Source: Salipiger mucosus DSM 16094
GTDB taxonomy: Bacteria > Pseudomonadota > Alphaproteobacteria > Rhodobacterales > Rhodobacteraceae
Direction: 5' to 3'
DNA: 64,000 nt
NCBI RefSeq assembly: GCF_000442255.1
Contig: NZ_KE557279.1
Location: 1,228 to 65,227, forward strand
Part shown: piece after piece, positions 42,874 to 58,254 of the stretch
Position numbering within the stretch: the first letter of the stretch is position 1
Layout: the number at the start of each line of letters is the position of its first letter
Notes under the pieces: generated by a model
The model's database searches: none
What the model was told of the DNA's origin: nothing
Seen by the model: only the letters and a program-made list of their open reading frames with translations
Position numbers and translations under genes: made by a program

Positions 42874-42914
42874 GCCCCGCCCGGCAGCCCATTCGGAGAA
42901 TCTGTGAGAGGAGG
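42874..42914 (-). repeat. Hairpin microinsertion B2 (diverged type I)
   Basis: About 41 bases between transposase codons for GQS and MARDF. The minus strand has a tiny hairpin ATTC-TCC-GAAT followed by CTGCCGGGCGGGGC, matching the 3' arm of type I copies. Homology to type I is partial, so membership is tentative. Confidence 0.5.
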
Positions 42915-42944
42915 GCTTTGCCCCGGCAGTTTCACGCAATGCAT

Positions 42945-42987
42945 GCACTGACCGGCAGGGCATTTCCGAAGGAAATGTCCCGATAGG
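42945..42987 (-). repeat. Hairpin microinsertion B (type I)
   Basis: 43 bases inserted exactly between the transposase codons for RAETK and MHCVKL. The minus strand reads CCTATCGGGA, a hairpin CATTTCC-TTC-GGAAATG (42961-42977), then CCCTGCCGGTCAGTGC. Removing it joins AAA to ATG in frame. Same ends as copies A and C but a different stem, with paired changes on both arms. Confidence 0.7.
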
Positions 42988-43271
42988 TTTTGTCTCGGCG
43001 CGGCTTCGGCGGTGGTATCCGCTCCACTTTCGCCAGATGGCGCCGTCCAGGGTATTTCGATGCGCGCAGGGCCTCGTTCCGGGCGATGGCGGCTGCGGTC
43101 GAAGGCTTCCAGGGCCTGGCGTTCCTGCACGGCGGGATGACGGCATGGGCGCCAAGGTCGGCGATGGCGTCGTGGCACCTGCGCGTGTCGCAGGCACCGT
43201 CGGCGGTGACCGCCCCGATCTCCACGTCGTCAGGGATCTGGCTGAGCAGTTCGGGCAGCATGGGCGCGTCC

Positions 43272-43310
43272 GCTGCCCGACAGGGCATTGCGCAGCAATG
43301 TCCCGAAAGG
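43272..43310 (-). repeat. Hairpin microinsertion A (type I)
   Basis: 39 bases: CCTTTCGGGA, hairpin CATTGC-TGC-GCAATG (43286-43300), then CCCTGTCGGGCAGC. It sits exactly at the junction where about 55 codons of the transposase are missing, so here the element coincides with a deletion. Confidence 0.68.
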
Positions 43311-43465
43311 GATCGGCAGGTTCAGTGGCCCCAGCGAGCCGCGGTATGGAATGGACATGGCCAAGGTCTTCTGGCGCCGGCTCGGCGTGCTGAAATCGGG
43401 CACCGCCCAGTCGAGGCCGACGAGACGTAGAAGGCTTTCAGGCAGCGCACGCTCGCCGGATCGGC

Positions 43466-43681
43466 ATGGGCGCGCGCGGTGCTCCGCTACGGCATCACGC
43501 TCTCGCGATCCTTCTGTTCCTGCGGGCCCTGCGCCGCTCCGGCGAGCGCGCCGGCCGGCTGGCCGAGCAACTCGAGACCATGGAGAACACCCATGACGCG
43601 CTACGACGGATGCTCGAAGCGGCGGCGCGGCCGCGAACTCGCGAGGAACTGGCTGAGAGGCTGCGCAACGGTCGGCTCTGA
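43466..43681 (+). CDS. Small coiled-coil protein fragment, possible phage i-spanin (Rz-like) remnant
   Basis: 71 codons: a hydrophobic N-terminal stretch (HHALAILLFLRALRR), then a predicted coiled coil RSGERAGRLAEQLETMENTHDALRRMLEAA and RTREELAERLRNGRL. That is the layout of inner-membrane spanins. An out-of-frame reading over the end contains GCATVGSDNG, reminiscent of overlapped o-spanin lipoproteins, but it lacks a hydrophobic signal. It abuts the truncated end of IS5 remnant 1 and has no clear ribosome-binding site, so it is likely a prophage leftover. Confidence 0.3.
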   Translation: MGARGAPLRHHALAILLFLRALRRSGERAGRLAEQLETMENTHDALRRMLEAAARPRTREELAERLRNGRL

Positions 43682-43923
43682 CAATGGCAGCTTCGCGACG
43701 TGCCCGCGCTTCGTCGAGCATGGCTTGGAGTTCCAAGCGGGGTCGGGCGAGCAACCATGCCGACTCCCGGAGAGATCGATGATCGCGAAGATGCTGAGCG
43801 ACCACGCTCTCATGCGAGACCTGGCGCCGACGCGTCGACGTCAGGTCCACCCGCCGAACACTATGCCACAACACTTCCTTTTCTTTCGCAAATTTTACAA
43901 TGAATTCGGTAACCTAGGAGAAT
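43682..43923. other. Spacer between the spanin-like fragment and cheB
   Basis: Nothing convincing is coded here. It holds a short AT-rich stretch (TTTCGCAAATTTTACAATGAATTC, 43885-43908) just downstream of cheB; no hairpin terminator is seen. Confidence 0.3.
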
Positions 43924-45030
43924 CTACTTCTTGGTTGCCGCCCAATTCTTGATGTCTGCAGGCAGTCTGGAAAGAGGGCGTGCCAGAGTGGCGGCCCCGA
44001 TGGACAGCGCCTCGTACGGCATTCCGAAGACCACGGATGTCGCCTCGTCCTGGACAAGCGTCTCGGCGCCGGCCTGTCGCATTTCCAGCAATCCGCGCGC
44101 GCCGTCATCCCCCATGCCGGTCAATACGATCCCAAGGGCCTGGCAGCCTGCGGCCTGTGCGACCGAGCGGAACAGCACGTCGACCGAGGGGCGGTGGCGA
44201 GACACGCATTCCCCGGCCACGATCTCGATGGCGTAGCCGGCCCCGTTTCGCCGGACCAGCATGTGGCGGTTGCCCGGCGCGACCATGACCAAGCCGCGCG
44301 CCAGGCGGTCTCCCGACTGGGCTTCGGTGACGCGCGGGCGGCAGAGCCCGTCCAGCCGTTCCGCAAAGGTCCGCGTGAAATGCTCTGGCATGTGCTGGAC
44401 GATCACGATCGGCGGCAGGTCGGGCGGCAGCGGCGACAACACCTGCACCAGCGCCTCGGTTCCGCCGGTGGAGGCTCCAATGGCGATGATCTCTCCATGC
44501 GGCGGGCCCGCATTCGCGCGCGGCGGCAGCGGCGGCAGGATGACATCCGCAGTCAGCTTCGGGCCAGGGCTGAGGGTCTTGGCTGCCGGTTTCGCGCCGC
44601 GCCGTGGTCGCGTCGATGCGGCGGCATGGACGGCATCGCTCAGGCGCACCTCGGCCTCGGCCCAGTCCGCCTTTGAGGTGAGCCGGGGTTTGGAAACCAC
44701 CTCGGCCGCGCCGCTTTCAAGCGCCAGCATCGCGTTTTTCGACCCCTCGGCCGTGAAGGCCGAGCAGACGACCACCGGCATCGGCCGTTGCGCCATGATC
44801 CGGCGCAGGAAGGCGAGGCCGCTCATCCCCGGCAGTGCCAGGTCCAGCATCAGCACGTCGGGCAAGGCATTGCGCATGGCGGCGGCGGCCTCGTAGGCGT
44901 CGCCGGCCTGGCCCATGACCGTGATCCCGGGGTCGGCCGACAGAAGCCGGGTCAGGGCCGACCGGGCCGAGGCGCTGTCGTCGACGATCATCACCGAGAT
45001 GGGCGTCGCCGATCTGGGCTGCGGGCTCAT
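43924..45030 (-). CDS. cheB: Chemotaxis protein-glutamate methylesterase/response regulator CheB
   Basis: 368 residues. N-terminal receiver domain (about 12-125) with the phospho-acceptor Asp in VLMLDLALPGMSG and Lys in VVSKPR; a linker of about 40 residues; then the methylesterase domain with catalytic Ser in AIGASTGGTEAL, His in VIVQHMPEHFTRTFAERL and Asp in LTGMGDDGARGL. It demethylates or deamidates receptor glutamates, giving adaptation. Last gene of the che operon; its ATG overlaps the cheR stop by four bases. Confidence 0.95.
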   Translation of the reverse strand: MSPQPRSATPISVMIVDDSASARSALTRLLSADPGITVMGQAGDAYEAAAAMRNALPDVLMLDLALPGMSGLAFLRRIMAQRPMPVVVCSAFTAEGSKNAMLALESGAAEVVSKPRLTSKADWAEAEVRLSDAVHAAASTRPRRGAKPAAKTLSPGPKLTADVILPPLPPRANAGPPHGEIIAIGASTGGTEALVQVLSPLPPDLPPIVIVQHMPEHFTRTFAERLDGLCRPRVTEAQSGDRLARGLVMVAPGNRHMLVRRNGAGYAIEIVAGECVSRHRPSVDVLFRSVAQAAGCQALGIVLTGMGDDGARGLLEMRQAGAETLVQDEATSVVFGMPYEALSIGAATLARPLSRLPADIKNWAATKK

Positions 45031-45878
45031 GCGTCAACCTCTTGTCTGCGGAAGGCGGCTGGGGCGTGCTGTTTCAGGCGCGGGTCGTCGACGATCATCG
45101 ATTCCGCGTGGCCCACGAAGAACCAGCCGCCGACCCGAAGGTGGTTCACGACATCCGAGACCACGCGGGCCTGCTGCGCGGCATCAAAATAGATCAGCAC
45201 GTTGCGCAGAAAAATCGCATCCAGGTTGTGCGCCACCGGGAAAGGCGGGTCGATCAGGTTGAGTTCGGCAAAACGGGCGCGGCGGCGCAGTTCCGGCACG
45301 ATCCGCACGTCTTCCCCGGCGGATCGACCGCGCCCCATCATTACATAGCGCGACCGCATGTCCGGCGGCACAGGCGCCATCTGCATCGAGGGATAGATCG
45401 CGCGAGTCGCCTGTTCCAGAACGGTGCTGGAAATGTCGGTCCCGAGGATCGCCCAGTCGAGCCGGGCATCCGCCAGCGCCGCGTCGGCAAGGACCATCGC
45501 GGCGGACCACGCCTCGGCCCCGGTAGAAGAGGCGGCGCTCCACAACCGGAACCGGCAGGCGGCGCCGGGGCGGGTACGGTTCAGCGCCTCCGGGATGACC
45601 TTTCGAGCGAGGATATCGAAATGGGCCGGTTCACGGAAGAAGTCGGTCTTGTTGGTCGTGACCTTATCGACAATCAGCTTCCATTCGTCGTTGAGTGCGC
45701 CGCCCGAAAAAAGATGCGCGAGATAGTCGTCGAGATCGCGGAACCCACCCTCCAGCAGCCGCCGCTGCAGGCGCGAGGCCAGAAGGTGGTCCTTGTTCGC
45801 CGGCATCCTGATCCCGGTTTCGGCGTAGATCAGGTCGCGGAAGCGACCGCGCAGGTCCGGCTGGCTCAGTCGCGACAC
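45027..45878 (-). CDS. cheR: Chemotaxis protein methyltransferase CheR
   Basis: 283 residues: the N-terminal helical domain (about 1-75; YAETGIRMPANKDHLLASRLQRRLL), then the SAM-dependent domain with TTNKTDFFREPAHFD, LWSAASSTGAEAWSAAM (in the SAM-binding position), GTDISSTVLEQATRAIY and NLDAIFLRNVLIYFD. It methylates receptor glutamates. Overlaps cheW by 13 bp at its start and cheB by 4 bp at its end. Length typical. Confidence 0.94.
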   Translation of the reverse strand: MSRLSQPDLRGRFRDLIYAETGIRMPANKDHLLASRLQRRLLEGGFRDLDDYLAHLFSGGALNDEWKLIVDKVTTNKTDFFREPAHFDILARKVIPEALNRTRPGAACRFRLWSAASSTGAEAWSAAMVLADAALADARLDWAILGTDISSTVLEQATRAIYPSMQMAPVPPDMRSRYVMMGRGRSAGEDVRIVPELRRRARFAELNLIDPPFPVAHNLDAIFLRNVLIYFDAAQQARVVSDVVNHLRVGGWFFVGHAESMIVDDPRLKQHAPAAFRRQEVDA

Positions 45879-46396
45879 GGCACGTCATTCGGGGCAGTCC
45901 GACGCGGCCGGGCCGCGGCCATGACGGCGGGATCGAAGACCGCGTTCACGTCCAGCAATGCGGTGATCTGGTTGTTCCGCCGCCCGATCCCGTGCAGCAC
46001 GCGCGGGTCCCAGGCCAGCATCTCGGCCTCGCTCACCGGCGCGATGAGGCCACCGTCGTCGAGCCCCGCTACCTCGATCACACGATCAACGCGAAGCGCG
46101 ACCCGGTGGTGGGTGCCGGCGCGGTCGAAGCTGAGGAGCAGGATGCGCGTACCCTCATCCTCCGCCCGGCTCGCCTCGCCCAGAAGGCGACGCAGGTCCA
46201 CCAGGGCCACCGAAGCGCCCCGCACGTCGATCAACCCAAGCAAGTGTTCCGGCGCGTTTGGCAGCCGCACTGGCTGCTGCGGCGACAGGATCTCCTGTAC
46301 CATTCCAACCTCCACCGCGAAGAGGCTGCCGGCGACGGCGAAGGTCACGACGGTCTCCGCCCGCTCGATCCGGGGTGCTTCCACAGACACTTCCAT
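45866..46396 (-). CDS. cheW: CheW coupling protein (copy 1)
   Basis: 176 residues with a single CheW/SH3-like domain (about 15-155): FAVAGSLFAVEVGMVQEILSPQ, NAPEHLLGLIDVRGASVALVDLRRLLG and VALRVDRVIEVAGLDD. It links receptors to CheA. It lies 12 bases after the MCP stop. A second CheW is two genes upstream; the two may serve different receptor positions in the array. Confidence 0.92.
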   Translation of the reverse strand: MEVSVEAPRIERAETVVTFAVAGSLFAVEVGMVQEILSPQQPVRLPNAPEHLLGLIDVRGASVALVDLRRLLGEASRAEDEGTRILLLSFDRAGTHHRVALRVDRVIEVAGLDDGGLIAPVSEAEMLAWDPRVLHGIGRRNNQITALLDVNAVFDPAVMAAARPRRTAPNDVPCRD

Positions 46397-46408
46397 CCCC
46401 TCACCCCG

Positions 46409-48061
46409 TCAGGCTGCGTTGCGCCTGCCGGAGGGGCGCATGAAATCGGCGTCCAGTTCGTCCTCGCCCCCGCTCATGTCGAAGTCGAAGCCGCCACCGT
46501 CGAGCTTGTGCGCGGCCTTCGACACCCTCTTCGCGGGCCGCCGGGCAGCGACAGGAGCAGGTTGCCCCTGCTCGTCCGTGCGGAAGTAGGAGATGGCAGA
46601 GCGCAGCGTCTCGGACTGGGCGGACAGTTCTTCGGCGGTTGCGGACATCTGTTCCGAGGCCGACGTATTCTCCTGCGTCACCTTGTCGAGCTGCTGGATC
46701 GCCAGGTTGACCTGGGTCGCGCCGGAGGCCAGTTCGCGGCTGGCCGAGCTGATCTGGCTGACCAGTTCCGAGGTCCGCTCGATATCCGGCACCAGGCCAT
46801 CGAGCATTTTCCCAGCCTGTTCCGCGGCCTGCACCGTGTTGCCGGACAGCGAAGAGATCTCTCCCGCCGCCGTCTGGCTGCGCTCTGCAAGCTTGCGCAC
46901 CTCCGACGCCACCACGGCGAAGCCGCGCCCGTGTTCGCCGGCCCGCGCGGCCTCGACCGCTGCGTTCAGCGCCAGAAGGTCGGTCTGGCGGGCGATCTCC
47001 TGCACCACCATGATACGTTCGGCGATGGTCTTCATCGCCTCGACCGCCTCGGCCACGGCGCGGCCGGAATCTCGGGCGTCGGAGGCGGATTTCCGGGCCA
47101 TTTCCTCGGTCTGAGTGGCGTTTTCGGCGGTCTGTTTGATGTTGGCGGTCATCTGCTCCACCGAGCTCGACGCCTCTTCGGTCGAGGATGCCTGTTCCGT
47201 CGCGCCCTGGCTCAGCTGTTCGGCGGTCGAGGCCATTTCGGACGACCCCGACGCCACCTGGCCGGCTCCCCCCGTGACCTCGCCCACGACGCGGCGCAGG
47301 TTGTCGGTCATGTCGTTGAATGCCCTCAGAAGATCCGCAATCTCGTCGTTGGTCGTGATATTGGCGGTTTCGGTCAGATCGCCGGCCGCAACCTTGCTGG
47401 CCAAGGCATTCGCGCGATGAAGGCCACGGCTGATCGTCAGGATGATCCAGGCCGCCGCGATGGTCCCGATCGCGAGCATCCCGACGATCATCGCGATGGC
47501 GAGCGCGCGGGACGAGCCATAGTTCTCATTCGAGCGTGCGTCGGCCGCGGCAAGGCCTTCCATGTTCAACGCGAGAACTTCTTCAAGCAATGTCTCCATG
47601 CGGTCCCACATGACCTGGCCCTCGCGGGAGATCAGGCGATAGGCCTGAAGCTTGTTCCCGTTCTCGGCCATCGCCATTGCCCTGTCGTTCATCTCCGTAA
47701 GCGTCGTCAGTTCCTCTTCGAAATTTTCCAGTAGACGCTTACCGTCCTCGGACGCCAGGTCGGTGAATTCGTCGAAAATGTCCTGTCCGATGCCTCGGGT
47801 TTGCTCCAGACGCTGCTGGACGAGGGCCTCCTGCTCAGGGTTTTCCGCCAGGATGTATTCCCTGACGTCACGTTGCGCCCGCAACTGATTGGCCGTCAGT
47901 TGTTCTGCCAATTGTACGCGTTGCGCGTCCTCTTGGACGATACTGGTCAGATTGCCGCTCATCGTGCCGAGCGAGCGCAGACCCATGACCATCCCGAAGA
48001 CGGCAACGGCGATCAGGACCGCGAATGCGGATGCGAGCTTGAGTTTCAGTGTAAATCTCAT
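46409..48061 (-). CDS. Methyl-accepting chemotaxis protein
   Basis: 550 residues. TM1 about 9-29, a periplasmic four-helix-bundle sensor (about 30-185), TM2 about 188-212, HAMP about 213-265 and a long MCP signalling domain whose hairpin tip is [41 protein letters not shown]. Glutamine/glutamate methylation candidates flank it ([17 protein letters not shown]). The C-terminus ends [10 protein letters not shown] and has no NWETF-like pentapeptide. It is the only transmembrane receptor in the cluster; ligand unknown. Confidence 0.95.
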
Positions 48062-48071
48062 GGCGCTGTCC

Positions 48072-48596
48072 TCAGGGCTGGAGTGCAGGAAGCTCGAACC
48101 CGCTCAGATGGGTCGAAAATATCCCGTCTAGATCGGGAATGATGAAGAAACGGTCGTTCTTGCGGCCGATGGCCTCGACCAGATGACGCGGCCAGCGGGT
48201 GCCGACGCTGGGCACATCCTCTAGCGCGGCGCCGGTCACGTCGGTGACCTCGTGCACCTGTTCGGCCAGGATCCCGACGACCGAAGGCGCGCCGTCGAGC
48301 ATCAGGTCGAGCACCAGGATGCGTGTGTCGGCATTGGGCGGGCGGATCGGCATACGCAGGGGAATGCGTAGGTCGGTTAGCGGCACGACCATGCCGCGCA
48401 CGTTGATGAGCCCGCTGGCGAAGCCTGGCGCGTTCGGGACGCGGGTGATGGTGCCGGGCTCGATCACCTCGCGCAGGATCGCGGTCGAGATCGCCACCAG
48501 CTCCGCCCCGAGGCTGAGCGTGACCATGGTGCGGTTGCGCCGAGCGTGGGACGGCATTCCGGCGGGCGGGCGCCGTTCGGTGGTTGCGGACATCAT
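48072..48596 (-). CDS. cheW: CheW coupling protein (copy 2)
   Basis: 174 residues with a CheW domain: [53 protein letters not shown] and [30 protein letters not shown] at 48596 overlaps the cheA stop by four bases. Its C-terminal [12 protein letters not shown] is a common CheW ending. Confidence 0.92.
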
Positions 48597-50497
48597 GCGG
48601 CCTCCGTGCTGTCGCGCGTCTGGCCGAAGGCCACCAGTTGCGGCACATCTAGGATCAGCGCGACCGAACCGTCGCCCAGCACCGTCGCGCCGGAAAAAGT
48701 CTTAAGCGCGGCATGCAGCGGCGTAAGCTGCTTGATGACGGTCTGGCTGGAGCCGATGATCCGGTCGACGGTCAGCCCGACCCGCAGTTCGCCGGCCGTC
48801 ACCACGACGACCTTCTGCCAGGGTCCGGCCTGTCCCTCGCAGCCCAGCAGGTCGCGCATTCGCAGAAACGGCACCAGCTGGTCGCGAATGTTGAGGAAGC
48901 GGGAGCCCCGGCTACCGTCCGCATGCGCCTCGGGCAGTTCGCTGATGTGTTCGACGGCGGCCAGCGGGATCGTGTAGCGTTCGCCGCCGATCTCGACCAG
49001 CAACCCGTCGATGATCGCGAGCGTCAATGGCAGTCGCATGTCTATCTGCGTGCCGTGCCCGGGCTCGCTGTCAACCTCGATGGAGCCGCGCAGCTGTTCG
49101 ACGGTGCGTTTCACCACGTCCATGCCCACACCGCGGCCCGACAGTTCGGTCACCGTTTCGGCGGTGGAGAAGCCGGGGTGCAGGATCATCGCCCGCAGTT
49201 CGGACTCCTCCAGTTCGGCGTCGGGGGCCACCAGCCCGCGCTCCTCGGCCCGGGCGCGGATGCGGCCGAGATCGAGGCCGCGCCCGTCGTCCGACAGGCT
49301 GATGACCACCTCGGCCCCGGAATAGCGGGCGCTCAGGCGGATCGTTCCGGCGTCGGGCTTGCCGAGCGCGCGGCGATCCTCGGCTGCCTCGAGGCCGTGA
49401 TCGGCAGAGTTGCGGATCAGATGCAGCAGCGGATCCGCCAGCAGTTCGATCACCGTCTTGTCGAGTTCTGTATCCTCGCCCTCGATCTCCAGCACGATCT
49501 GTTTGCCGAGGCTGTCGTTCAGATCGTGCACGAGGCGTCGGAACCGGCCGGTGATCGTTTCGATGGGTGTCATGCGGATCGACATCGTCGTCTCGCGCAT
49601 CCCGGTGGCGAGGCGCTGAATCTCTTCGGCAACGCCAACAAGTTGCGGATCGCCTGAACGCAGGGCGAGTTCCGCCAGCCGCGCCTCGGCGATTACCAGT
49701 TCGCCGACGCGGTCCATCATCTCGTCCAGCCGTTCGGCCGGGACGCGCATCATCGCGCGGTCGCGTGAGGGTGCAGCGGACGGGCCGGTGACCGTAGCGG
49801 GGTCATCGGGCGCCCCGGCTTCGGGCACGCCATCGCGCTGCAAGTCGAGGTCCAGCCCCCCGTCGTTGAAGATGAAGACCTCACGGATCTGGTCCTCCGT
49901 CAGGTTGCCGGGCAGGCGCATCCGCCAACCGAGCCATAGCCGGTCGGGCTCGATCGCGGCCAGGTCCGGCAGGCGATCGGTCAGCACCTCGACATCGGTG
50001 GCGCCCAGGGTGCGCAGTTCGTCCAGCAGCCCTTGCGGCCGGGCGCCGAGGATCAGGCAGTCGGGCGCCAGATGGAAGGACAGTCGCCAGCCGTCCGATG
50101 CGTCGGCCGCGCCATCCCCGACGCTTGAGACCATCGCGCCAAGTTCCGCCAGCAGGGGCGCCCCGGCTTCAGGCCCGCCGCCGTCCAGCAACGCGACGAC
50201 GTGATCGCGCGCCCTCAGGCACAGGGCGATCAGCGCGGGGGTGACGGGAAAGGCGCCTTCGCGCACAGCCTCGAAGGCGGTTTCGAAATGATGCAGGAAC
50301 TGCGACAGTTCGACATGGCCGAACATTGCGCCCGAGCCCTTGAGCGTATGCAGATCGCGGAACACGCGGTCTATCAGCGCCTTGTCGTCGGGGCGGCTCT
50401 GCATGTCCAGCAGTCCGGCCTCAAGGCTTTCGGCAAGCTGTTGCGCTTCCATCAAGAAAAGTTCGTCGGCGTCCCCCCGGCCGTTCGTCCCCGTCAT
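48593..50497 (-). CDS. cheA: Chemotaxis histidine kinase CheA
   Basis: 634 residues. P1 (Hpt) at about 5-110 with the phosphorylated His in FRDLHTLKGSGAMFG; a region around 115-215 in the P2 position; P3 dimerisation (RVPAERLDEMMDRVGELVIAEARLAEL, about 250-320); P4 kinase with N box HLIRNSADHGLE, G1 DDGRGLDLGRI and G2 ELSGRGVGMDVV; P5 CheW-like domain (RLPLTLAIIDGLLVEIGGERYTIPL to the end). All catalytic motifs are intact. Coupled by 4-bp overlaps to both neighbours. Confidence 0.95.
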   Translation of the reverse strand: MTGTNGRGDADELFLMEAQQLAESLEAGLLDMQSRPDDKALIDRVFRDLHTLKGSGAMFGHVELSQFLHHFETAFEAVREGAFPVTPALIALCLRARDHVVALLDGGGPEAGAPLLAELGAMVSSVGDGAADASDGWRLSFHLAPDCLILGARPQGLLDELRTLGATDVEVLTDRLPDLAAIEPDRLWLGWRMRLPGNLTEDQIREVFIFNDGGLDLDLQRDGVPEAGAPDDPATVTGPSAAPSRDRAMMRVPAERLDEMMDRVGELVIAEARLAELALRSGDPQLVGVAEEIQRLATGMRETTMSIRMTPIETITGRFRRLVHDLNDSLGKQIVLEIEGEDTELDKTVIELLADPLLHLIRNSADHGLEAAEDRRALGKPDAGTIRLSARYSGAEVVISLSDDGRGLDLGRIRARAEERGLVAPDAELEESELRAMILHPGFSTAETVTELSGRGVGMDVVKRTVEQLRGSIEVDSEPGHGTQIDMRLPLTLAIIDGLLVEIGGERYTIPLAAVEHISELPEAHADGSRGSRFLNIRDQLVPFLRMRDLLGCEGQAGPWQKVVVVTAGELRVGLTVDRIIGSSQTVIKQLTPLHAALKTFSGATVLGDGSVALILDVPQLVAFGQTRDSTEAA

Positions 50498-51146: not shown

Positions 51147-51333
51147 GCGCTCGCTCCTTCCCCTTCGGACAGGGTCGGAGAGTGGAGATAAAGAGTTTCC
51201 CGTTGGTAAAACCCGGACCAGATTTTCCGAGGCGCGGTGTAACCTCGTGTTAATGTCCCAGCGCCTATCGTCCACTCGTTACCCGCCGCCGCCTCGGCCG
51301 CGGCGTTTTCGGGAACGAGGTGGGACAGCCCGC
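51147..51333. promoter_or_regulatory. Divergent promoter region of the che cluster
   Basis: 187 bases between the STAS gene and the coiled-coil gene; must carry both promoters. It includes GTGTAACCTCGTGTTAATGTCCC (51236-51258), an AT-richer patch; no obvious operator palindrome is seen. Confidence 0.4.
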
Positions 51334-53067
51334 ATGGCGCAACTGGACAGCCCCATCGAAAGCACGACCACCCTGACGTCGCGGCTGGCGGCCGAGGGGC
51401 GTGCCGTCGAAACCGTCTTCACTGCCGCGGCCGATGCGCTGTTTGCGGGGCGCGAGGATCTGGTCCGCCTCGTCGCGACGATCCAGGCCTATCGTACTGG
51501 CCTGTCGCGGCTTTCCACCGACGAACTGATCGCCAGCAGCACCGCGATGACCGAACAGATCGCCACGGTGGAGGCATCCTTTGCCGAAGAATGCCGCGCC
51601 ATTGCCACCATGGAACAGGCGCTGCGCGCCACGAAGAGCCCGTTCTCCAGCCTGCGCCAACGGGTCCAGACGTTGCAGGTGTTCACCAGCACCGTGCGCG
51701 TGGTGGAGATGGAAGTCGGCTTCGACGAAGGCCACAGCTTCTCGCAGCAGATCAAGGACCAGTCGACCCGGAGCATGGAGGGCCTCGAGGAACTGGGACG
51801 ACTTGCGCGCAGGATCCGCGAGCAGACGGCCGAGATCTCGGCCCGGCAGACGGCCTTTACGGACACGGGGGGGCGGTCGCTGTCCGCGATGCGCGGACAG
51901 CTCGACGCGATGGTAGCCCGGATCGCGCCCGGGGTGAAAAAGGCCCTTGAGGACGGCGCCCGGACGGAGGATGCCGCCCGCCAGGCAAGCGACCGCCTTG
52001 GCGGCGCCATCTCCGCGCTGCAGGTTGGCGACAGCTTCCGGCAGCGGATCGAGCATGCGGGCGCCGCGCTGGCCCTTCTTCCCGACGCCACCGAGCATCG
52101 GGCGGCCCACGCCTTCCTGCGCCATCTGGTCGCCACGCAAATGACCGCAGCCGCGACGGCATTGCGGCGCGACATCGACCGCGCCGCCGACACCATGGCG
52201 ACTGTCTCCGCAGGAACGGCGGACCTGGTCGCCTGGTCGGGCGAGCTGCTTGAGTCGTCCGAGATCGCGGAGCTTCTGGGCACCTTGCAGGATGTCTCGG
52301 GCGCCGGTCTGGCCCGGCTCTATTCAGCGCAGGCCGAACGTCGGCTGCTGGAGACCCAGCTGCGCACCCTGCGCGACGCTCTGGGCGACATCCAGAAGGT
52401 GACCCGCGAACAGCTTGAAGTCGACGGCCTGATGCGGATGGGCAGTTACAACGTGACCCTGCGCAGCCAATCATCGCGTGGCAAGGGCACGACGATGACC
52501 TATGTTGCGAAGCAGATTGGCGAATTGACCGACCAGTGCCTTGCTGCGCGGCAGGACGTCATGCGCCATCTGGACGTGGTTCGCCGCACCATCGCAGACA
52601 ATTTCCACACGAGCGCGGGCCGGGTGTCGGGCCGGCTGGACAGCATCGCTGACGGCATGTCGGGTCTGGGCGACATGCTGCGTCTCTGGCGCGACCTCCA
52701 TGCCTCGCTGTCTGATCTGCGCACGGCAGGCCCAGAGGCCGTGGCGGAGTTTGACCGCTGCGCAAAACAGATGCGGGCGCAGCTTGCGACCGCGCAACGG
52801 CTGGAAGATATGGCAGACCGCCTGCGCATCGACCCGTCCGTGCCCCAGGCCTTTCCCGCGGACGACCCCACAGCGCGAGAGATCGCGGCGCAGATACGCG
52901 CGCTTTATTCGGTCCCCGAAGAACGCGAGATCCACGATCGCCTCTGTGCGCCCGGTTCGTCAGGCGCCGCGCTGCCCGCGCGGGCTCCGGCGGAAGGCAT
53001 CGCAGGGGGGGCACCCGCCGAGCCCGGCGGGGCGCCCGCGGAAGAGGCCGAGTTCGAATGGTTCTGA
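51334..53067 (+). CDS. Large soluble coiled-coil protein linked to chemotaxis, C-terminal aromatic tether
   Basis: 577 residues, predominantly alpha-helical with heptad-like stretches (for example ELGRLARRIREQTAEISARQTAF, 150-175; ALGDIQKVTREQLEVDGL, 350-367), no signal peptide and no membrane span. It lacks the conserved MCP hairpin tip. The C-terminus is a flexible Pro/Ala/Gly/Glu tail ending EEAEFEWF, similar in design to the flexible linker and W/F pentapeptide by which MCPs hold CheR/CheB. It is divergent from the che operon and followed 40 bases later by a globin gene. Possibly a cytoplasmic scaffold or receptor-like protein; no named family is recognised. Confidence 0.6.
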   Translation: MAQLDSPIESTTTLTSRLAAEGRAVETVFTAAADALFAGREDLVRLVATIQAYRTGLSRLSTDELIASSTAMTEQIATVEASFAEECRAIATMEQALRATKSPFSSLRQRVQTLQVFTSTVRVVEMEVGFDEGHSFSQQIKDQSTRSMEGLEELGRLARRIREQTAEISARQTAFTDTGGRSLSAMRGQLDAMVARIAPGVKKALEDGARTEDAARQASDRLGGAISALQVGDSFRQRIEHAGAALALLPDATEHRAAHAFLRHLVATQMTAAATALRRDIDRAADTMATVSAGTADLVAWSGELLESSEIAELLGTLQDVSGAGLARLYSAQAERRLLETQLRTLRDALGDIQKVTREQLEVDGLMRMGSYNVTLRSQSSRGKGTTMTYVAKQIGELTDQCLAARQDVMRHLDVVRRTIADNFHTSAGRVSGRLDSIADGMSGLGDMLRLWRDLHASLSDLRTAGPEAVAEFDRCAKQMRAQLATAQRLEDMADRLRIDPSVPQAFPADDPTAREIAAQIRALYSVPEEREIHDRLCAPGSSGAALPARAPAEGIAGGAPAEPGGAPAEEAEFEWF

Positions 53068-53107
53068 ATCCGGCCTGTGGGGCTCTTTCAGAAGGATATT
53101 GCACAGG

Positions 53108-53533
53108 ATGCTGACCCAAGGGGAGATCAAGGCGATCCGCGCCAGTTGGCTGCTGGTCGCAGCCAATCGCGCCGAATTGGGCGAGCGTTTCTACAAGAAC
53201 CTGTTCCGCGCCGCCCCCGAGGTCCGGCCCATGTTCACCAACGGGCCGCGGGTGCAGGGACGCAAGCTGATGGAGACGCTGGCCATCGTGGTCGACAGCC
53301 TCGACGACCTCGCTCCCCTGCTGCCGACGATCCGGCAACTCGGCGCCAGTCACGCCGCGCTCGGCGTTCGGCCGGAGCATTTCGATTTGGTGGGGAGGAT
53401 CCTCCTGCAGACGCTCGTCGAGGCGGCGGGGGAGGAGATGCCGAATGGCGCTACCGACGCGTGGACGAAGGCCTATCAAGCTGTCGCTTCGGCAATGATC
53501 AATGAGGAGATGCCAAAGCCGAACCGGTTCTGA
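53108..53533 (+). CDS. Single-domain bacterial globin
   Basis: 141 residues matching flavohaemoglobin/Vitreoscilla-type globin domains: MLTQGEIKAIRASW (A helix), RFYKNLFRAAPEVRPMFTNG with the CD-corner Phe, and ASHAALGVRPEHFDLVGRILLQTL with the proximal His in SHAALG. There is no reductase domain. Such globins bind O2, NO or sulfide. It is 40 bases after the coiled-coil gene on the same strand, inside a chemotaxis cluster, so a role in supplying an oxygen- or NO-related signal is conceivable but unproven. Confidence 0.88.
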   Translation: MLTQGEIKAIRASWLLVAANRAELGERFYKNLFRAAPEVRPMFTNGPRVQGRKLMETLAIVVDSLDDLAPLLPTIRQLGASHAALGVRPEHFDLVGRILLQTLVEAAGEEMPNGATDAWTKAYQAVASAMINEEMPKPNRF

Positions 53534-53698
53534 TCTCAAGAGAATTGCGCGTCGGGGAGCTTTCGGAGTGCATTTTCCCTCTACTGACGCTCAACTGGAG
53601 GCCGTTGGACGGCTCTGATGCGCAAAGCCTATGAGGGATTCACCTCGTGATTCCAATGCGCTAACTTGAAGGGATGATCAGTCCCATACCCCGACCGG

Positions 53699-54519
53699 CG
53701 TTGTTGCGCAACTCTCGGCTGAGGCGTGACTGCCCTTCCCCCCTGACGTTATGCCACGCGGACGATCTCGGCGGTACCGAGGGCGTTGAAGCGGTTCATG
53801 AGGGCGATGCGGATGTGGATTTCGGCTGCCTGGCGAGGGGCTCTGGCCATGATCCGCTCGCCGAGGGCTTTCAGGCAGCGCAGACCCGCCTCGATACGGC
53901 TGCGGACGTGGTATCCGGTCCAGCGTTTCCAGAACGCCTGCCCGTAGTGTCGGATCGCGCGCAGTGTCTCGTTTCGGGCGCGTACCGCAGGGCAATCGTC
54001 TTTCCGCAGGCAGCCTTTTTCCGGATCGGAATGATCGGAGCATCTTCACGCTCGATGATGGCCTTGTGGCAGCGGCGCGTGTCGTAGGCGCCGTCGGCGG
54101 TCACGGTGCCGATCTGCTCATCTTTTGGGATCTGACCGAGCAGGCCGGGAAGCACCGGGCTGTCGCCGTCGCGGCTGGGGGTCAATTCCAGGGCGCGGAT
54201 GTCGGACGTGGCCGGGTCCATGGCCAGATGCACCTTGCGCCATTGGCGCCGGCCCTGTGGCCCGTGTTTTCGGGTCTGCCATTCGCCATCGCTCAAGAAC
54301 TTGATCCCGGTGCTGTCGATCAGAAGGTTCAACGGACCTGCGACACGGCGATACGGAACCTGAACAGTCTGCTTGTCCGAGTCCCACCGCTCGCCGTCGC
54401 GGAGCCACATGCCGTTCAGGTTCATGCCCTTCTTGCTGGGGACTCCCGGTTCGTGATCCGGGTTAGCGATCTGTGAAAGGTCGGCGTATTCGAGGAAAAC
54501 GACCTCGCGTCGGGAGAGT
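53699..54519 (-). mobile_element. IS5-family element remnant 2
   Basis: Left end GCGTTGTTGCGCAACTCTCG (53697-53716) shares the TTGTTGCGCAA core with remnant 1. The transposase homology ends near 54519 without a right terminal repeat, so the 5' end of the transposase is missing. It borders the chemotaxis cluster on the right, in the same orientation as remnant 1. Confidence 0.78.
53749..54519 (-). pseudogene. IS5-family transposase pseudogene 2
   Basis: Reads EVVFLEYADLSQIANPDHEPG, then NLLIDSTGIKFLSDGEWQTRKHG (first Asp) and GTVTADGAYDTRRCH (second Asp). A one-base slip in an A run near 54015-54020 (IPIRK/K) moves the rest to another frame: RKDDCPAVRARNETLRAIRHYG, FWKRWTGYHVRSRIEAG (catalytic Glu), ending ALGTAEIVRVA at the stop at 53749. 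The N-terminus is missing beyond 54519. No hairpin microinsertion is present in this copy. Confidence 0.85.
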
Positions 54520-54660
54520 TAACGTCAGGTCGAGAGATGATTTGGCTCTAGTTGCACGAGATGGGAAATAATCTCCTTGGTGGCGACTATAAATTTAAAA
54601 GATATTTTAGCCTCGCGCTGCCAGTGTCGTGTTCGTGCCCGCTCCCCCGGTTGGCGCGCA
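54520..54660. other. AT-rich spacer between mobile fragments
   Basis: Contains an AT-rich patch (TATAAATTTAAAAGATATTTTAG, 54589-54611), the lowest-GC stretch nearby, with no gene. It may be prophage or plasmid DNA left between the IS5 remnant and the integrase pseudogene. Confidence 0.35.
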
Positions 54661-54698
54661 AGGGTTCCCGGGCGCCGCTCCTCCCGCCCGGGAACCCT
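54661..54698. repeat. Perfect 14-bp inverted repeat downstream of the integrase pseudogene
   Basis: AGGGTTCCCGGGCG / CGCCCGGGAACCCT separated by 10 bases, located 8 bases after the integrase stop codon (54706-54708). It is a strong hairpin without a T tract; it may be an old integrase terminator or a protein-binding site. Confidence 0.6.
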
Positions 54699-54705
54699 GA
54701 CCGCA

Positions 54706-55465
54706 TCACGTCGTCATCCGCATCTCGTCTAGCCAGTCCGCGTAGTGCTGCATCATCCGCGTCCGCCCCTTCCAGGTCCTCGGCCGAGTTATAGGCCCGC
54801 CGGACGTTGTTCTTGTCCTCGTGCGAGAGTTGCTTCTCGATCCACCGCTCGTCCCACCCCTGCTCGTTGAGGTTCGTCGAGGCTGTCTTGTGGAACCCGT
54901 GCGGGACGTGCTTGCCCTTTTAGCCGAGCGACTTCATCGCCGCCTCCATGGTGTTCTCCGACATCACCGGCCCGGTGCGGCCCTGGGCAGGGAACATCAG
55001 GTCGCCTTTATGCCCGGTGAAGGAGCGGAGGAGCTTGAGCGTCGCGAGGCTCTGCGTCGCCAGCGGGACGATATGCTTGCGCTTCCGCTTCATCCTCCCG
55101 GCGGGCACGACCCACAAGCCGTCTTCCCACGAGATTTCGTTCCACGTCCCGAACCTCAGCTCCGAGGAGCGCAGCCATGTCAGAGCGGTGAGCTTGAGGG
55201 CACATTGCGTGATGAAGCCGCCCGGGCAGTCCCAGACGGCGCGCATCAAGACTTCCACCTCGTCGCGCTCCGTGACTGCGGGGAAGCCCTGCTTCTTCGG
55301 CGCCACGATCGCGCCCTAGAGATCAGCGGCGACATCCCGGTCGCAGTCGCCGGTCGCGATGCCGCAGCGCAAAACACAGCTCGCCGCGCCGCGTACCCTA
55401 CGGGCGTTCTCATACCGCTGGGCTGCATCCTCTTCGCGCAGGACTGGCGCCTTTCCTGATCCTCC
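54706..55465 (-). pseudogene. Tyrosine recombinase (P4-type integrase) pseudogene, C-terminal part
   Basis: Core-binding and catalytic domains of a DUF4102/P4-like integrase: ARRVRGAASCVLRCGIATG, then (after a TAG) IVAPKKQGFPAVTE, ALTWLRSSELRFGTWNEI (Arg I region), KRKHIVPLATQSLATL, then (after a TAA replacing Tyr in KSLG-Y-KG) KHVPHGFHKTASTNLNEQGWDERWIEKQLSHED (His-x-x-Arg box with Lys, H, H). A one-base insertion near 54755 precedes RTRMMQHYADWLDEMRMTT. With two stops and a frameshift it is dead. It is joined at 55465 to an IS21 fragment that separates it from its N-terminal part. Confidence 0.87.
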
Positions 55466-55917
55466 TTACCTCCAGTCGAACTGGCAGGCCTCGCCTGGAT
55501 CGAAGGTTAGTGGGACATAGGCGGCCGCAGACGCCTCCCGTTCCTCCCTGTTCCACGACGCTGCATATCGCCGAACTGCATCATAACCGCCGTCGTATCC
55601 GCGGGCCCGCAGCTCCTCGAAGATCCGGATAAGGGTCAGCCTCTCACGCTTCGCCTTCCGGGCATTTGCCGCCAGCATGTCATCGAGCTCACCCGTCCAG
55701 GGGCCGATCTTCGGCAGCGGCTGGATCATGCGCTCGTAGGTCAGTTCGGTCGCCCCGGACCGGATCACCTTGCGCACCGTGTTCCGCGAGACCCGTAGTT
55801 CGCGGCAGATCTGCTTGATCGACTTGTTCGGCATTGGCCTCGGACCAATGGCGGCTCAATGCCTCAATCCTGAAAATACGCCCGCCGCATCTTCGCAATC
55901 GTCTCCACGACCAACAT
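55466..55917 (-). pseudogene. IS21 transposase IstA, N-terminal fragment
   Basis: Begins MLVVETIAKMRRAYFQD at 55917, is interrupted by a 41-base hairpin microinsertion (55827-55867), and continues KSIKQICRELRVSRNTVRKVIRSGATELTYERM (the IstA helix-turn-helix) to TFDPGEACQFDW. The DDE catalytic domain is missing. IstB is absent. Non-functional. Confidence 0.85.
55827..55867 (-). repeat. Hairpin microinsertion E (type II)
   Basis: 41 bases between codons for AYFQD and KSIKQI of IstA. Minus strand: TGAGGCATTGAGCC, loop GCCATTGGTCCGAG, GCCAATGCCGAA; outer stem GGCATTG/CAATGCC. Deleting 41 bases restores the IstA frame. Shares ends (TGAG..GAA) and loop with copies F and G in an unrelated transposase. 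Confidence 0.68.
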
Positions 55918-56029
55918 CCCACACCGTGTTCCCCGATGACTTCGGGGGCATCATCCACGTCAGTGTAAGGGGGGCATTTTGGGACGCCGATCACCCCTCT
56001 AAGGGGTCAATTTTGCACGCCTGTTCACA

Positions 56030-56411
56030 GGAAGGTCTTTCGTAGCTTCTGCTCCAGCGATGTGATCGTGCGGGGGTTGGCCCCCTCGGCGCGGCGCTTC
56101 TCCATGAACTCGGAACACAGGTCGAACCAAGACTTCTCGGCGGCTTCCTCCTCCCCATCCTCGACCGCTTCGGGGTCGATGCCCCGCAGGACCATCCTCT
56201 TGATCTCGTCGCGCTGTTCGCGCGCGTCGGCCAGCTTGACGAGAGGATGGGGTCCGAGGGTCCGCTTTCTCTACGCACCGTTGAAACGGTAGCTGAGCTT
56301 CCACGAGCGAGCGCCGGAAGGGGTGACCTCGATGGAGAGTCCCTCTGAGTCGGCCTTGGAGTAGCGGGTGGATTTCGGTTCCAGTTTGCGGTTGACGGCT
56401 TCTGTGAGCAT
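56030..56411 (-). pseudogene. Tyrosine recombinase pseudogene, N-terminal part (DUF4102 domain)
   Basis: Starts MLTEAVNRKLEPKSTRYSKADSEGLSIEVTPSGARSWKLSYRFNG at 56411. After a TAG it continues RTLGPHPLVKLADAREQRDEIKRMVLRGIDPE, FDLCSEFMEKRRAEGANPRTI and SLEQKLRKTF. This is the arm-binding DUF4102 domain plus the start of the core-binding domain of the integrase whose C-terminal part lies at 54706-55465. It starts 191 bases from the 3' end of tRNA-Ser, the expected place for an integrase using that tRNA as attachment site. Confidence 0.85.
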
Positions 56412-56601
56412 AAGTTTCTGTCTTTCTTTTGAGAATCCCGATTTTGTTGCCCCGACAGCGCCTACCCGGCTCGGGGTAACGCGGGGGTAACAGGTGACCC
56501 CGCGACAGGTCGCGACAAAAGGTGACAGTAAGGTGATATTCCCGAAAACAAGGCGCGCGAGCGCGTCTCGTCCTGAACTTTCGGGTTATGTCAGGGGTGG
56601 A
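56412..56601. other. Spacer between integrase and tRNA-Ser
   Basis: Holds direct short repeats (GGGTAACGCGGGGGTAACAGG, 56474-56494) and CGCGACAGGTCGCGACAAAAGG (56503-56524), an iterated pattern such as integrase arm-binding or excision-factor sites. No gene is seen. The attachment core would be expected next to the tRNA 3' end. Confidence 0.35.
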
Positions 56602-56691
56602 TGGCGGAGACGAAGGGATTCGAACCCTCGAGACCCTTCCGGGCCTACTCCCTTAGCAGGGGAGCGCCTTCGACCACTCGGCCACGCCTCC
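56602..56691 (-). tRNA. tRNA-Ser (anticodon GCT)
   Basis: 90-base type II tRNA including encoded CCA: acceptor GGAGGCG/CGTCTCC-G-CCA, D arm GCCGAGTGGTCGAAGGC, anticodon arm CTCCCCTGCTAAGGGAG with GCT (plus-strand AGC at 56655-56657), a long variable arm and T arm GAGGGTTCGAATCCCTTC. It decodes AGC/AGU serine codons. The integrase pseudogene faces its 3' end. A second copy of its 5' half is at 58505-58542. Confidence 0.95.
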
Positions 56692-56962
56692 GTCGACGCG
56701 TATAGCCAAGGAAACACGGGGGTTACAAGGCGAAACTGCCCTCATCGTCAAAAATCTCCCTTCCGTCAAAAACCGCTTCAAGAGGCACTGAGAGGCACCA
56801 AGTTTGGGCAAGATCTGGTCAATTTCCCTTACAGCGAAAGCGCCCTCGAACGCGTCAAGCGTTTTGTGAGGCCGCGCAGGCCGAACGTGCCCTTGAATCT
56901 GCCAAGGTCGTTTCCGGCCGGGTCTGCACGATCCGATCTCCTTTCCAGAAGGAGGTTGGGAC

Positions 56963-57472
56963 ATGAAGACCAACAGCAAGGACCCGGGTTCTGCGAGCGC
57001 CGAAGAGCTCGCTATGTATTGGAGACTGCCCTCGGCCAGGGCTGCCCGTGAGCTCGCGCGGAAAATCGGCGTCCGCAACGTCGGCGGCCGATACGCGTGG
57101 TCTTCCATTTGGGCAGCCGAGGGGCTCGCGCCACCTCCACGATCGCGCTGGGACGAACTGAAGCTGCCACACTGCACGGCGGACGACGTCGCAGGCATCC
57201 TCGGGGAGTCGCCGCGCTCCGCCAGGCGACGCGGGTTGGCGAAGCCAGATGCGAGCTTTCCCGACCCTATCCCGCTACGGAAAAAGCCGATGCTCTGGCG
57301 AAGGGCACAGCTACGCGCCTGGCAGGCAGGATTGCCTGGGCCTGACTACAAGCGCGCCTCGACGACAGCGATGCTCTCGCCTGAAGCCTCGAAGCCCCGG
57401 CAGCGCAAGCCCGCGTGGAAAGTATTCGATCCGTGGGCTGCAGCACGATCTGCGGCCACCGGGAACGATTAG
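56963..57472 (+). CDS. Unknown small protein of an integrated element, C-terminus at an IS boundary
   Basis: 169 codons with an excellent ribosome-binding site (AGAAGGAGG at 56948-56956). Sequence is rich in Arg/Ala/Trp: SAEELAMYWRLPSARAARELARKIGVRNVGGRYAWSSIWAAEG, which looks like a MerR/excisionase-style helix-turn-helix for DNA binding, then a second similar segment TADDVAGILGESPRSARRRG. The stop codon TAG at 57470-57472 is formed at the left edge of an IS5-type element, so the original protein may have been longer. Function unknown; phage or island regulator is likely. Confidence 0.6.
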   Translation: MKTNSKDPGSASAEELAMYWRLPSARAARELARKIGVRNVGGRYAWSSIWAAEGLAPPPRSRWDELKLPHCTADDVAGILGESPRSARRRGLAKPDASFPDPIPLRKKPMLWRRAQLRAWQAGLPGPDYKRASTTAMLSPEASKPRQRKPAWKVFDPWAAARSAATGND

Positions 57473-57683
57473 GCTCAGGACCCATTGATTTGGTTGGGCG
57501 ATCGTGATTCACCGCTCGAAAATGAGCGGTGAACCTGTCTGATCTTTTCTGGTTGAGCGATGCGCAGATGGCGCGTCTTGAGCCTTACTTTCCGAAGTCG
57601 CATGGCAAGCCCCGGGTCGATGACCGGCGGGTTCTGAGTGGCATTATCTTCATCAATCGCAACGGCTTGCAGTGGCGCGACGG

Positions 57684-57721
57684 TGAGGCTCGAACCGCCA
57701 CCGGTTCGAGGCCGACCCGAA
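57684..57721 (+). repeat. Hairpin microinsertion G (type II)
   Basis: 38 bases after codons QWRD: TGAGG, hairpin CTCGAACCG-CCAC-CGGTTCGAG, then GCCGACCCGAA. Removal gives an in-frame join to GGGGAGTATGG (EYG). Aligns with E over TGAGGC..CCGCCA..GGT.CGAGGCC..CCGAA. Confidence 0.66.
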
Positions 57722-57970
57722 CGGGGAGTATGGCGCCCACAAGACACTCTACAACCGCTGGAAACGATGGAGCGATAAAGGCGTCTTCGCCCGGATCATG
57801 GCGGGGCTGGCCGCCGAGCGCGGCGAGGAGATGACTGTGATGATCGACGCCACCCATCTGAAGGCCCATCGCACGGCGTCCAGCCTGGGCGTTAAAAAGG
57901 GGGGCGTGGACGCCTGATTGGCCGAACCAAGGGCGGTATGAACACGAAGCTGCACGCCATCTGCGACAGA

Positions 57971-58010
57971 TGAGCCATGTCGCGCCATTGGTCCGAGCGA
58001 CAATGGAGAA
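57971..58010 (+). repeat. Hairpin microinsertion F (type II)
   Basis: 40 bases after codons AICDR: TGAG, stem CCATGTCGC paired with GCGACAATGG (one bulge) around loop GCCATTGGTCCGA, then AGAA. Removal restores the frame into CRPIDLF. The stem differs completely from that of E while the loop is identical. Confidence 0.68.
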
Positions 58011-58213
58011 TGCCGGCCCATCGACCTGTTCCTGACGAAGGGTCCCGTCAGCGACTACATCGGGGCGCGTGCGCTCGTCAGCGGGCTGCCCAACGTCAAG
58101 TGGCTTCACGGAGATCGCGGCTACGATGCCGACCGGTTCAGAGAAGCCTTGCAGGACAAGAAGATATGTCCTTGCATCCCGGGCCGGAAGAAACGGAAGA
58201 CGCCCGTCCGGCC

Positions 58214-58254
58214 CCCTTTCGTGACATTGCTGCGCAATGCACTGCCGGGCAATG
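58214..58254 (+). repeat. Hairpin microinsertion C (type I)
   Basis: 41 bases between codons PVRP and DKRRYK: CCCTTTCGTGA, hairpin CATTGC-TGC-GCAATG, then CACTGCCGGGCAATG. Removal restores frame and the expected protein length exactly. Nearly identical to copy A, which sits in a different IS5 subgroup 15 kb away. Confidence 0.7.

Follow-up and report, generated by a model that had tools for sequence, protein, structure and literature searches.

Hairpin-forming DNA inserts of about 25 to 60 bases interrupt insertion sequence (IS) elements in Salipiger mucosus and other marine Rhodobacteraceae, and look like tiny mobile elements of an undescribed class that live within other mobile elements. 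They probably belong to several families of mobile DNA elements, very short and non-autonomous, which are maintained in hairpin form and have IS elements as their habitat. Their insertion is precise, both orientations occur, and in two sister sets the host genes changed in a near-neutral manner after insertion. The inserts were noticed in the 64-kb stretch of S. mucosus DNA analysed here (the window), where a first-pass annotation had interpreted them as a mobile microelement class or as sequences that are skipped. This interpretation was partly supported. Mobility is supported by precise insertions, found in many genomes and in many unrelated IS families, by recurrent sites and by carriers of one site that do not form a single clade, while skipping found no support.

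All seven inserts claimed in the window (A to G) are present at the given positions or a few bases away and, when aligned to uninterrupted relatives, prove to be clean insertions of 35-43 nt in their hosts. The proposed division into two families also holds, with A, B, C and G belonging to type I (A diverged) and D, E and F to type II (E diverged). The host copies and inserts are as follows.

42740..43460, minus strand: IS5-family copy, host of inserts A, B and C (72.1% identity over 614 nt to Sulfitobacter IS5 L361)
42877..42914, plus strand: insert A (type I, diverged), 38 nt long, at site t730 of IS5 L361 (alignment to L361)
42946..42988, plus strand: insert B (type I), 43 nt long, at site t699 (alignment to Sulfitobacter IS5 L361)
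43271..43311, plus strand: insert C (type I), consensus length 41 nt, at site t263-264 of IS5 L361
55443..55960, minus strand: truncated IS21 (start of IstA), host of insert D and of part of another insert
55443..55469, minus strand: partial further hairpin insert, IS21 site t462 (IS21 alignment; L015 has a 42-nt form)
55830..55867, minus strand: insert D, type II, 38 nt, IS21 site t102 (alignment to intact IS21)
57480..58430, plus strand: IS5-family copy, host of inserts E, F and G
57683..57722, plus strand: insert E (type II, diverged), net length 35 nt relative to intact IS5 (split by the aligner into 13 + 22 nt)
57969..58010, plus strand: insert F (type II), net length 37 nt relative to intact IS5 copies
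58214..58254, minus strand: insert G (type I), consensus length 41 nt, net length 40 nt relative to intact IS5

For insert C, where the aligner split the gap, the length was taken from the element consensus. This insert adjoins the Asp codon of LLI^DSTGIK, which we take to be the first catalytic Asp of the transposase. The group representative of its host IS5 copy matches Pfam DDE_Tnp_1_5 / DDE_Tnp_1. An insert similar to A, with a better paired stem, is present in the C1 copy L018, and the Thioclava indica locus L287 carries at the identical site t699 an insert whose inner stem is identical to that of B. The IS21 fragment of the window shares 82.7% identity over 456 nt with the Paracoccus seriniphilus IS21 copy L159, and it ends within an eighth insert (55443-55469) that was absent from the initial list. 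Letter-identical counterparts of insert D were found at t102 of L163, a copy from a Leisingera plasmid, and of L015. The latter, an IS21 copy of the same genome as the window, contains 16 insertions of 24-75 nt; it is 90.9% identical to intact IS21 over 2315 nt, and its sole other indel is a 1-nt deletion. The same genome also carries L002, an uninterrupted sister of the IS5 copy at 57480..58430.

Type I inserts are about 41 nt long (of 124 parsed copies, 99 measure exactly 41 nt; 10 were unparsed) and have the form CACTGCCCGGCAG-stem-loop-stem-CGAGAGGG, in which the ends are constant and the stem is variable yet paired. Types II (about 35-41 nt), III (about 50-63 nt, with two hairpins) and IV (24 or 27 nt) were found in the same kinds of hosts. 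A type I model gave ten matches in the S. mucosus genome with E-values of 1.5e-18 to 3.1e-11, a count that excludes insert A and for which B, C and G were among the model-building sequences. The earlier claim that it is the structure that is conserved, and not the sequence of the stem, is supported by 118 distinct type I rows, which showed two-sided base-pair changes in 87 cells, against a shuffled mean of 17.2, in an alignment that was fitted to the type I model and leans towards it. None of 500 shuffles reached the observed value and slid controls reached at most 43. The E-values of the model and the covarying stem pairs argue that the inserts are not due to chance. No Rfam match was obtained for any insert in five loci and in window positions 42500-58600.

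Empty sites were detected within the fetched loci for 45 of the 134 unique type I copies, with a net length of 41 in 25 of them. Identity at empty sites reached about 89% at best, and near-identical pairs differing in the presence of the insert were not seen. No target duplication was evident at type I inserts, the net length being equal to the element length. Substitutions were commoner within 3 nt of the junctions (0.219 vs 0.085), so the insert ends may be off by a few bases.

A search for further copies took both types well beyond the seven original inserts. Among 394 Rhodobacteraceae genomes, 156 contain type I, 169 contain type II and 77 contain both, a weak co-occurrence (Fisher p 0.04). 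Type I was also present in 102 plasmid records, for which the ten tallied genera and 60 listed rows are roseobacter relatives (assigned by recognition), and 119 genome stretches had matches, all but six of the 80 titles listed being Rhodobacteraceae or close kin. Dinoroseobacter shibae DFL 12, Ruegeria pomeroyi DSS-3 and Phaeobacter plasmids all gave type I matches, while none was found in phage records.

Among callable hosts, the inserts are nearly restricted to transposase genes. A colinear uninterrupted homologue spanning the insert was available for 123 of 194 copies (71 had no host call), and the called hosts were transposase genes of IS3, IS5, IS21, IS66, IS91, IS256, IS6 and others. Ten representatives, hand-chosen from 28 host clusters and accounting for 100 of the 123 called copies, each match a transposase family or IstB; the other 18 clusters (23 copies) were judged by eye only. 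Transposase families also led the counts per family in a Pfam scan of the longest abutting frames, and the single non-transposase matches in neighbouring frames were MutE, AMP-binding, Fic, TraG, H-NS and RNase H. At least one copy, L104, lies inside an rhs-like gene (identity by reading). Relative to the host gene, 56 of the 123 type I inserts are in sense and 67 in antisense orientation, some strand calls being possibly wrong. Host-frame calling by cross-locus scores (40 antisense and 14 sense of 54) was too noisy and was not used. The insert length is divisible by three in 4 of 123 type I cases.

Type I inserts preferentially follow YCRTC and precede G; most used sites in three intact reference IS copies do not match the strict YCRTC^G motif. 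Several sites are recurrent, including t326, t562, t885 and t964 of IS3. Site t263 of IS5 is occupied in 15 of the 21 related copies in hand, a proportion that overstates how common this is, since the loci were fetched largely via type I matches and the plasmid rows were partly picked by length. The carriers at t263 are not one clade, and a single-clade tree was rejected (p-AU 6.9e-6). Near-identical inserts were also found at matching sites of hosts about 20% diverged. The same sites have thus been struck in separate host lineages, and together with the near-identical inserts in diverged hosts this supports mobility. A process recognising the folded strand could copy or move the element, in a homing-like manner, to the corresponding sites in related IS copies. 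Insertions in useful genes would be weeded out, and broken IS copies could be carried on by transposases acting in trans.

Shared sites could also be old insertions inherited with IS lineages, plus some loss, instead of the result of repeated insertion or homing. The identity of inserts at shared sites drops as their hosts diverge (medians 0.98, 0.90, 0.88 and 0.84), so part of the sharing may indeed be inheritance, and all 154 same-site type I pairs are in the same orientation. As the general explanation, inheritance is nonetheless unlikely given the scattered carriers at t263. Moreover, L015 is closer to the intact L159 (91.4%) than to L164 (88.8%), yet L015 and L164 share, at t1320, a type I insert whose stem is the same in both and, at t1577, a type IV insert that is nearly identical between the two. 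At t964 and t326, inserts are identical or one to three changes apart while their flanks diverge within about 3-10 nt on the left and 1 to about 40 nt on the right. Copies dead since a common insertion would also be expected to show more nonsense codons and a higher N:S than seen. A more elaborate proposal, which we hold to be doubtful, is that the hairpin families are a host- or element-driven system disarming transposons, in which folded DNA enters conserved transposase sites, some near catalytic codons, and then homes to related IS as a gene-drive-like curb. Seven of 29 distinct sites lie within 15 nt of presumed catalytic codons, against 2.55 expected (p 0.011). This is a hint only, because the choice of sites, motifs and margin was made with the data already known and such proximity holds for none of the three sites in the IS5 copy at 57.5 kb.

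The reading of the inserts as skipped sequences implies that ribosomes bypass them or that the RNA is spliced, so that interrupted transposases stay functional, like in yeast mitochondria or at the T4 gene 60 gap. Reading frames do rejoin once the inserts are removed, which only shows that the hosts were intact before insertion. The IS21 copy with 16 inserts (L015) looks conserved on its own branch outside the junctions (N:S 21:56, no stop), but such host divergence can be older than the inserts. Nonsense codons are absent from 13 of 15 IS5 carriers and from 3 of the 9 IS3 copies with interruptions, several carriers also being free of small indels, and two IS5 copies with a 39-nt insert have an open frame and are annotated as whole proteins. 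Interrupted IS copies have also multiplied: D. shibae has three identical 919-bp interrupted IS5 copies (next best full-length copy at 75%), and genome G340 has three interrupted IS3 copies at 98-99.5% (next full-length copies at 79% and 77%, longer partial ones at most 84%). Against skipping, orientation is unbiased (56/67), and nonsense codons are found in the other 6 of these 9 IS3 copies (including three siblings), in 2 of 15 IS5 carriers, twice in the IS21 copy L164 and, by reading, once in a D. shibae IS5 copy. Sister copies with inserts in common gave N:S of 14:5 plus one stop (L131-L132), 10:8 (L079-L082) and 0:2 (L079-L083). Pooled over the first two sets, which contain few pairs, the N:S of 24:13 fits the neutral fraction (2.6:1; p 0.36), and the ratio of intact pairs (0.28-0.49:1) is rejected (p 1.4e-5); these p-values were computed on the fuller 24/37, smaller codon sets giving 18/23. 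The branch test looked favourable to skipping; the sister comparison, in which changes must postdate the insert, did not. Skipping is very improbable, and the inserts probably broke most host transposase genes.

No mobilising gene was found. The inserts might be REP/RAYT-type repeats of the known kind, with a resident Y1 (HUH) transposase as mobiliser, as their hairpin form, small size, asymmetric target preference and lack of evident target duplication would allow. Y1_Tnp (PF01797 at E 1e-6) was detected in 31 of 394 genomes and is positively associated with type I (20 of the 31; odds ratio 3.0, p 0.004). However, 136 of the 156 type I genomes lack a Y1 transposase, among them G002, G035, G067, G075, G262 and G340, and it was rejected as the mobiliser. 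The insert hosts are also genes and not intergenic space, and a GTAG or CGTC tag, read by eye, is absent from the ends of type I and II copies. We consider an identity with REP/RAYT repeats quite improbable. Type IV has a CGTC-like start or stretch and an in-frame length of 24 or 27 nt.

If the inserts are indeed mobile elements, a gene-less 41-nt element that resides family-wide in other mobile elements would rank with the smallest known mobile DNAs. It would raise the question of which process inserts a folded 41-mer without evident target duplication. The inserts would also account for part of the transposase pseudogenes of roseobacters, widely used strains included.

In the open-licence literature searched, no description of such inserts was found. 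Among the closest known systems are REP elements of the GTAG and CGTC superfamilies, palindromic repeats of 20-40 nt that are thought to be mobile; CGTC families are common in Alphaproteobacteria and have no dedicated transposase (PMC3733652). REPs are mostly intergenic; some copies lie within genes and are described as encoding amino acids, and in the same source Rickettsia palindromic elements (RPE) are named as well (PMC3733652). Types I and II differ from REPs in their ends and in sitting in transposase genes, where they mostly break the frame; type IV alone may be near CGTC-type REPs. RPE are palindromic inserts spread within protein genes of Alphaproteobacteria, mostly longer and in frame in their host genes, whereas few type I lengths (4/123) are divisible by three and the hosts are IS transposases. 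The bypassed inserts of Magnusiomyces capitatus mitochondria form hairpins. Like the T4 gene 60 gap, which also has hairpins, they are described as short frame-disrupting blocks that are bypassed in translation (PMC5009743). The inserts studied here, in contrast, occur in either orientation, and sister copies accumulate changes like unselected sequence. Small dispersed repeats of cyanobacteria and GC clusters of yeast mitochondria are also very small mobile sequences without genes, and we know of no restriction to transposases for either. The YCRTC^G preference without evident duplication may recall IS200/IS605-like insertion, yet most used sites in the three references miss the strict motif. 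Although they have no IS terminal inverted repeats recognisable by eye and no evident target duplication, the inserts resemble MITEs in being short non-autonomous elements.

All seven hairpin inserts that the first-pass annotation had described in the transposase genes of the window were present at those places; the window spans 1228-65227 of contig C7 in a 5.69-Mb genome. Alignment to uninterrupted relatives, one of the checks it proposed, showed them to be clean insertions. The comparison was a Sulfitobacter IS5 for the IS5 copy at 42.7-43.5 kb and a Paracoccus seriniphilus IS21 for the IS21 fragment at 55.4-55.9 kb. Against the Sagittula stellata IS5 and their own sister copy (L002), the three inserts E, F and G of the IS5 copy at 57.5-58.4 kb have net lengths of 35, 37 and 40 nt. 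Three further features were recorded in the window:

55443-55469, an additional partial insert, beyond the seven
53690-54560, a decayed IS5 copy without hairpin inserts, lying between interrupted copies (63.2% identity to the reference over 808 nt, many small indels)
56605-56691, minus strand, a tRNA gene (Rfam RF00005), between the two interrupted IS regions

A covariance-model search of this genome, also suggested at the first pass and run with a type I model built from ten copies, returned ten good matches, all in the same IS copies, and two further weak ones on another contig. An IS21 on contig C16 (L015) differs from the intact IS21 by 16 insertions, each 24-75 nt long; the two are 90.9% identical over 2315 nt and otherwise show one indel, of 1 nt. 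By eye, five or more shapes can be told apart among these 16 inserts. Types I and II are two of them; type III has two hairpins, one of them resembling GAATTGATCC-TGT-GGATCAATTC, type IV measures 24 or 27 nt, and the rest have other shapes. The type IV inserts of L015 at 10233-10256, 10918-10944, 11037-11063 and 11104-11127 have lengths divisible by three, and by eye the frames of the two at 11037 and 11104 are open. Across 394 genomes of Rhodobacteraceae, type I was found in 156, type II in 169 and either one in 248; per-genome copy numbers from these runs are lower bounds, with 15 or 16 candidates scored per genome. When 150 candidates were scored in seven rich genomes picked for it, 4 to 33 copies per genome were found. 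Matches were obtained in 102 plasmid records and in none of the phage records searched. A pattern scan of species genomes matched at least 119 stretches; among the 80 titles seen, all but six named Rhodobacteraceae or close kin. The exceptions comprised one Labrenzia and three unplaced Alphaproteobacteria, together with a Kitasatospora and a Methanotrichaceae archaeon that were both probably matched by chance.

Parsing succeeded for 124 of the 134 unique type I copies, which follow the layout CACTGCCCGGCAG - stem - loop - stem - CGAGAGGG and are exactly 41 nt long in 99 cases. Their ends are constant while the stem varies yet stays paired, which upholds the initial proposal that structure rather than stem sequence is kept. 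Pairing was found in 90.9% of type I cells versus 82.7% in shuffles, and cells changed on both sides of pairs numbered 87 versus 17.2 in shuffles and at most 43 in slid controls, in an alignment fitted to the type I model and thus biased towards it. The target preference is Y C R T C on the left and G on the right. For 45 of the 134 copies the fetched loci also contained an empty site; as the net length has its mode at 41 (25/45), type I appears from these alignments to insert without target duplication.

For 123 of 194 unique copies, an uninterrupted homologue spans the insert on one strand. Host and element strands agree in 56 and are opposite in 67, calls that are noisy because some of the homologue clusters judged by eye are antisense frames. 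The length is a multiple of three in 4 of the 123 inserts. The homologues form 28 clusters, and each of the ten representatives scanned (100/123 copies) matches a transposase family or IstB, as follows: rve/IS3, DDE_Tnp_1 (IS5 types), IS21 IstA and IstB, IS66, IS91, DUF772, Mutator and IS240. The remaining 18 clusters (23 copies) were assessed by eye. Copies outside IS elements look rare, though they exist, and frames neighbouring inserts gave six single non-transposase Pfam matches. The clearest non-IS host seen is what we read as an rhs-like gene fragment in genome G055, with a short type I element at L104:2483-2523 and a similar uninterrupted stretch elsewhere in the same locus.

Certain sites (t, position on the uninterrupted reference IS) recur. 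In IS3, t562 and t964 carry type I, t885 carries type II, by our reading in both orientations, and t326 carries type III with three different stems. We read t326 as the frameshift site, at the close of OrfA, from which IS3 elements produce OrfAB; the type III inserts there in five loci (L079, L156, L310, L056 and L172) add a strong hairpin at that point. The same 54-nt insert occupies t326 in L310, L156 and L079, whose hosts are about 20% apart. Site t964 was seen in seven copies from three genomes: three have an identical 41-nt insert, two others are shorter by one C, and the remaining two carry one and two changes, respectively. Their flanks begin to differ within about 3-10 nt to the left of the insert and within 1 to about 20 nt to its right. 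At IS21 t102, the 38-nt insert of this genome recurs letter for letter in Leisingera sp. M527, the hosts being 85.6% alike. Compared with window 42945-43314, a sister IS5 copy on contig C1 (L018:7983-8027) is missing the segment that separates inserts B and C, and in place of the two it has a single chimeric type I element, flanked on the left as B is and on the right as C is; this is a deletion by recombination between two microelements.

Shared sites could be old insertions passed on with IS lineages, an explanation that we consider unlikely. IS5 t263 is filled in 15 of the 21 copies compared, by inserts whose stems are of many kinds, and a single carrier clade was rejected (p-AU 6.9e-6); the 15/21 is inflated, since the set was collected largely via type I matches. 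Among 154 same-site pairs, inserts are less alike the more their hosts diverge, with median identity dropping from 0.98 to 0.84 (0.795 for different-site pairs), which counts against pure homing. In our view the spread combines fresh insertion at favoured sites with transfer between matching sites and some inheritance.

The first-pass annotation had also raised the idea that the inserts are skipped. Skipping by bypass or splicing, which would leave the transposase functional, is in our view very improbable. Counted outside junctions, codon changes on the branch of the 16-insert IS21 itself are 21 nonsynonymous (N) and 56 synonymous (S), with no stop; this is close to the uninterrupted branches (9:36, 29:108 and 27:97; neutral expectation 2.6:1) and could reflect either retained function or divergence older than the inserts. 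Sister copies with common inserts are a more direct test: L131-L132 gave 14 N, 5 S and one stop, L079-L082 gave 10 N and 8 S, and L079-L083 gave 2 S only. The first two pairs pooled (24:13) match the neutral fraction (p 0.36) and are not intact-like (p 1.4e-5), contrary to skipping. Nonsense codons occur in six of nine interrupted IS3 copies (of which three are siblings), twice in the IS21 copy L164, but in only 2 of 15 IS5 carriers. Four copies, L060, L241, L284 and the four-insert L287, are free of nonsense codons and of small indels. Most inserts probably inactivate their host, and many may be recent. Two IS5 transposases from different genera, L356:1-876 and L359:1-877, are annotated as whole proteins; the species are Leisingera methylohalidivorans and Loktanella salsilacus. 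Each has a type I insert of 39 nt, equal to 13 residues, at one and the same site immediately before the LLI^DSTG Asp, and the frame stays open.

Interrupted IS copies have multiplied: a single D. shibae plasmid bears three identical interrupted IS5 copies of 919 bp, their ends complete, and genome G340 has three interrupted IS3 copies (98-99.5%) with terminal repeats and different flanks. We infer that they would have been moved in trans by related transposases. Taken together, we favour with fair confidence the reading that the inserts are non-autonomous mobile microelements in IS elements, its standing slightly lowered, and that of skipping and of inheritance each slightly raised, by the scarcity of nonsense codons among IS5 carriers together with the bias of the t263 set. 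By a Y1 search of the 394 genomes, a resident Y1 transposase is not a general requirement for carriers.

No insert matched Rfam in the stretches searched, and no published description of such inserts was found in the open-licence literature; we file them as small palindromic mobile DNA of a new sort, outside every tested family. Their nearest known likeness is to REP elements. According to PMC3733652, CGTC repeats, which are REP elements, are common in Alphaproteobacteria, have no dedicated transposase and lie mainly between genes. Type IV, with its CGTC-like start, may be kin of these repeats, unlike types I and II. The bypass cases (PMC5009743) have only their shape in common with the inserts.
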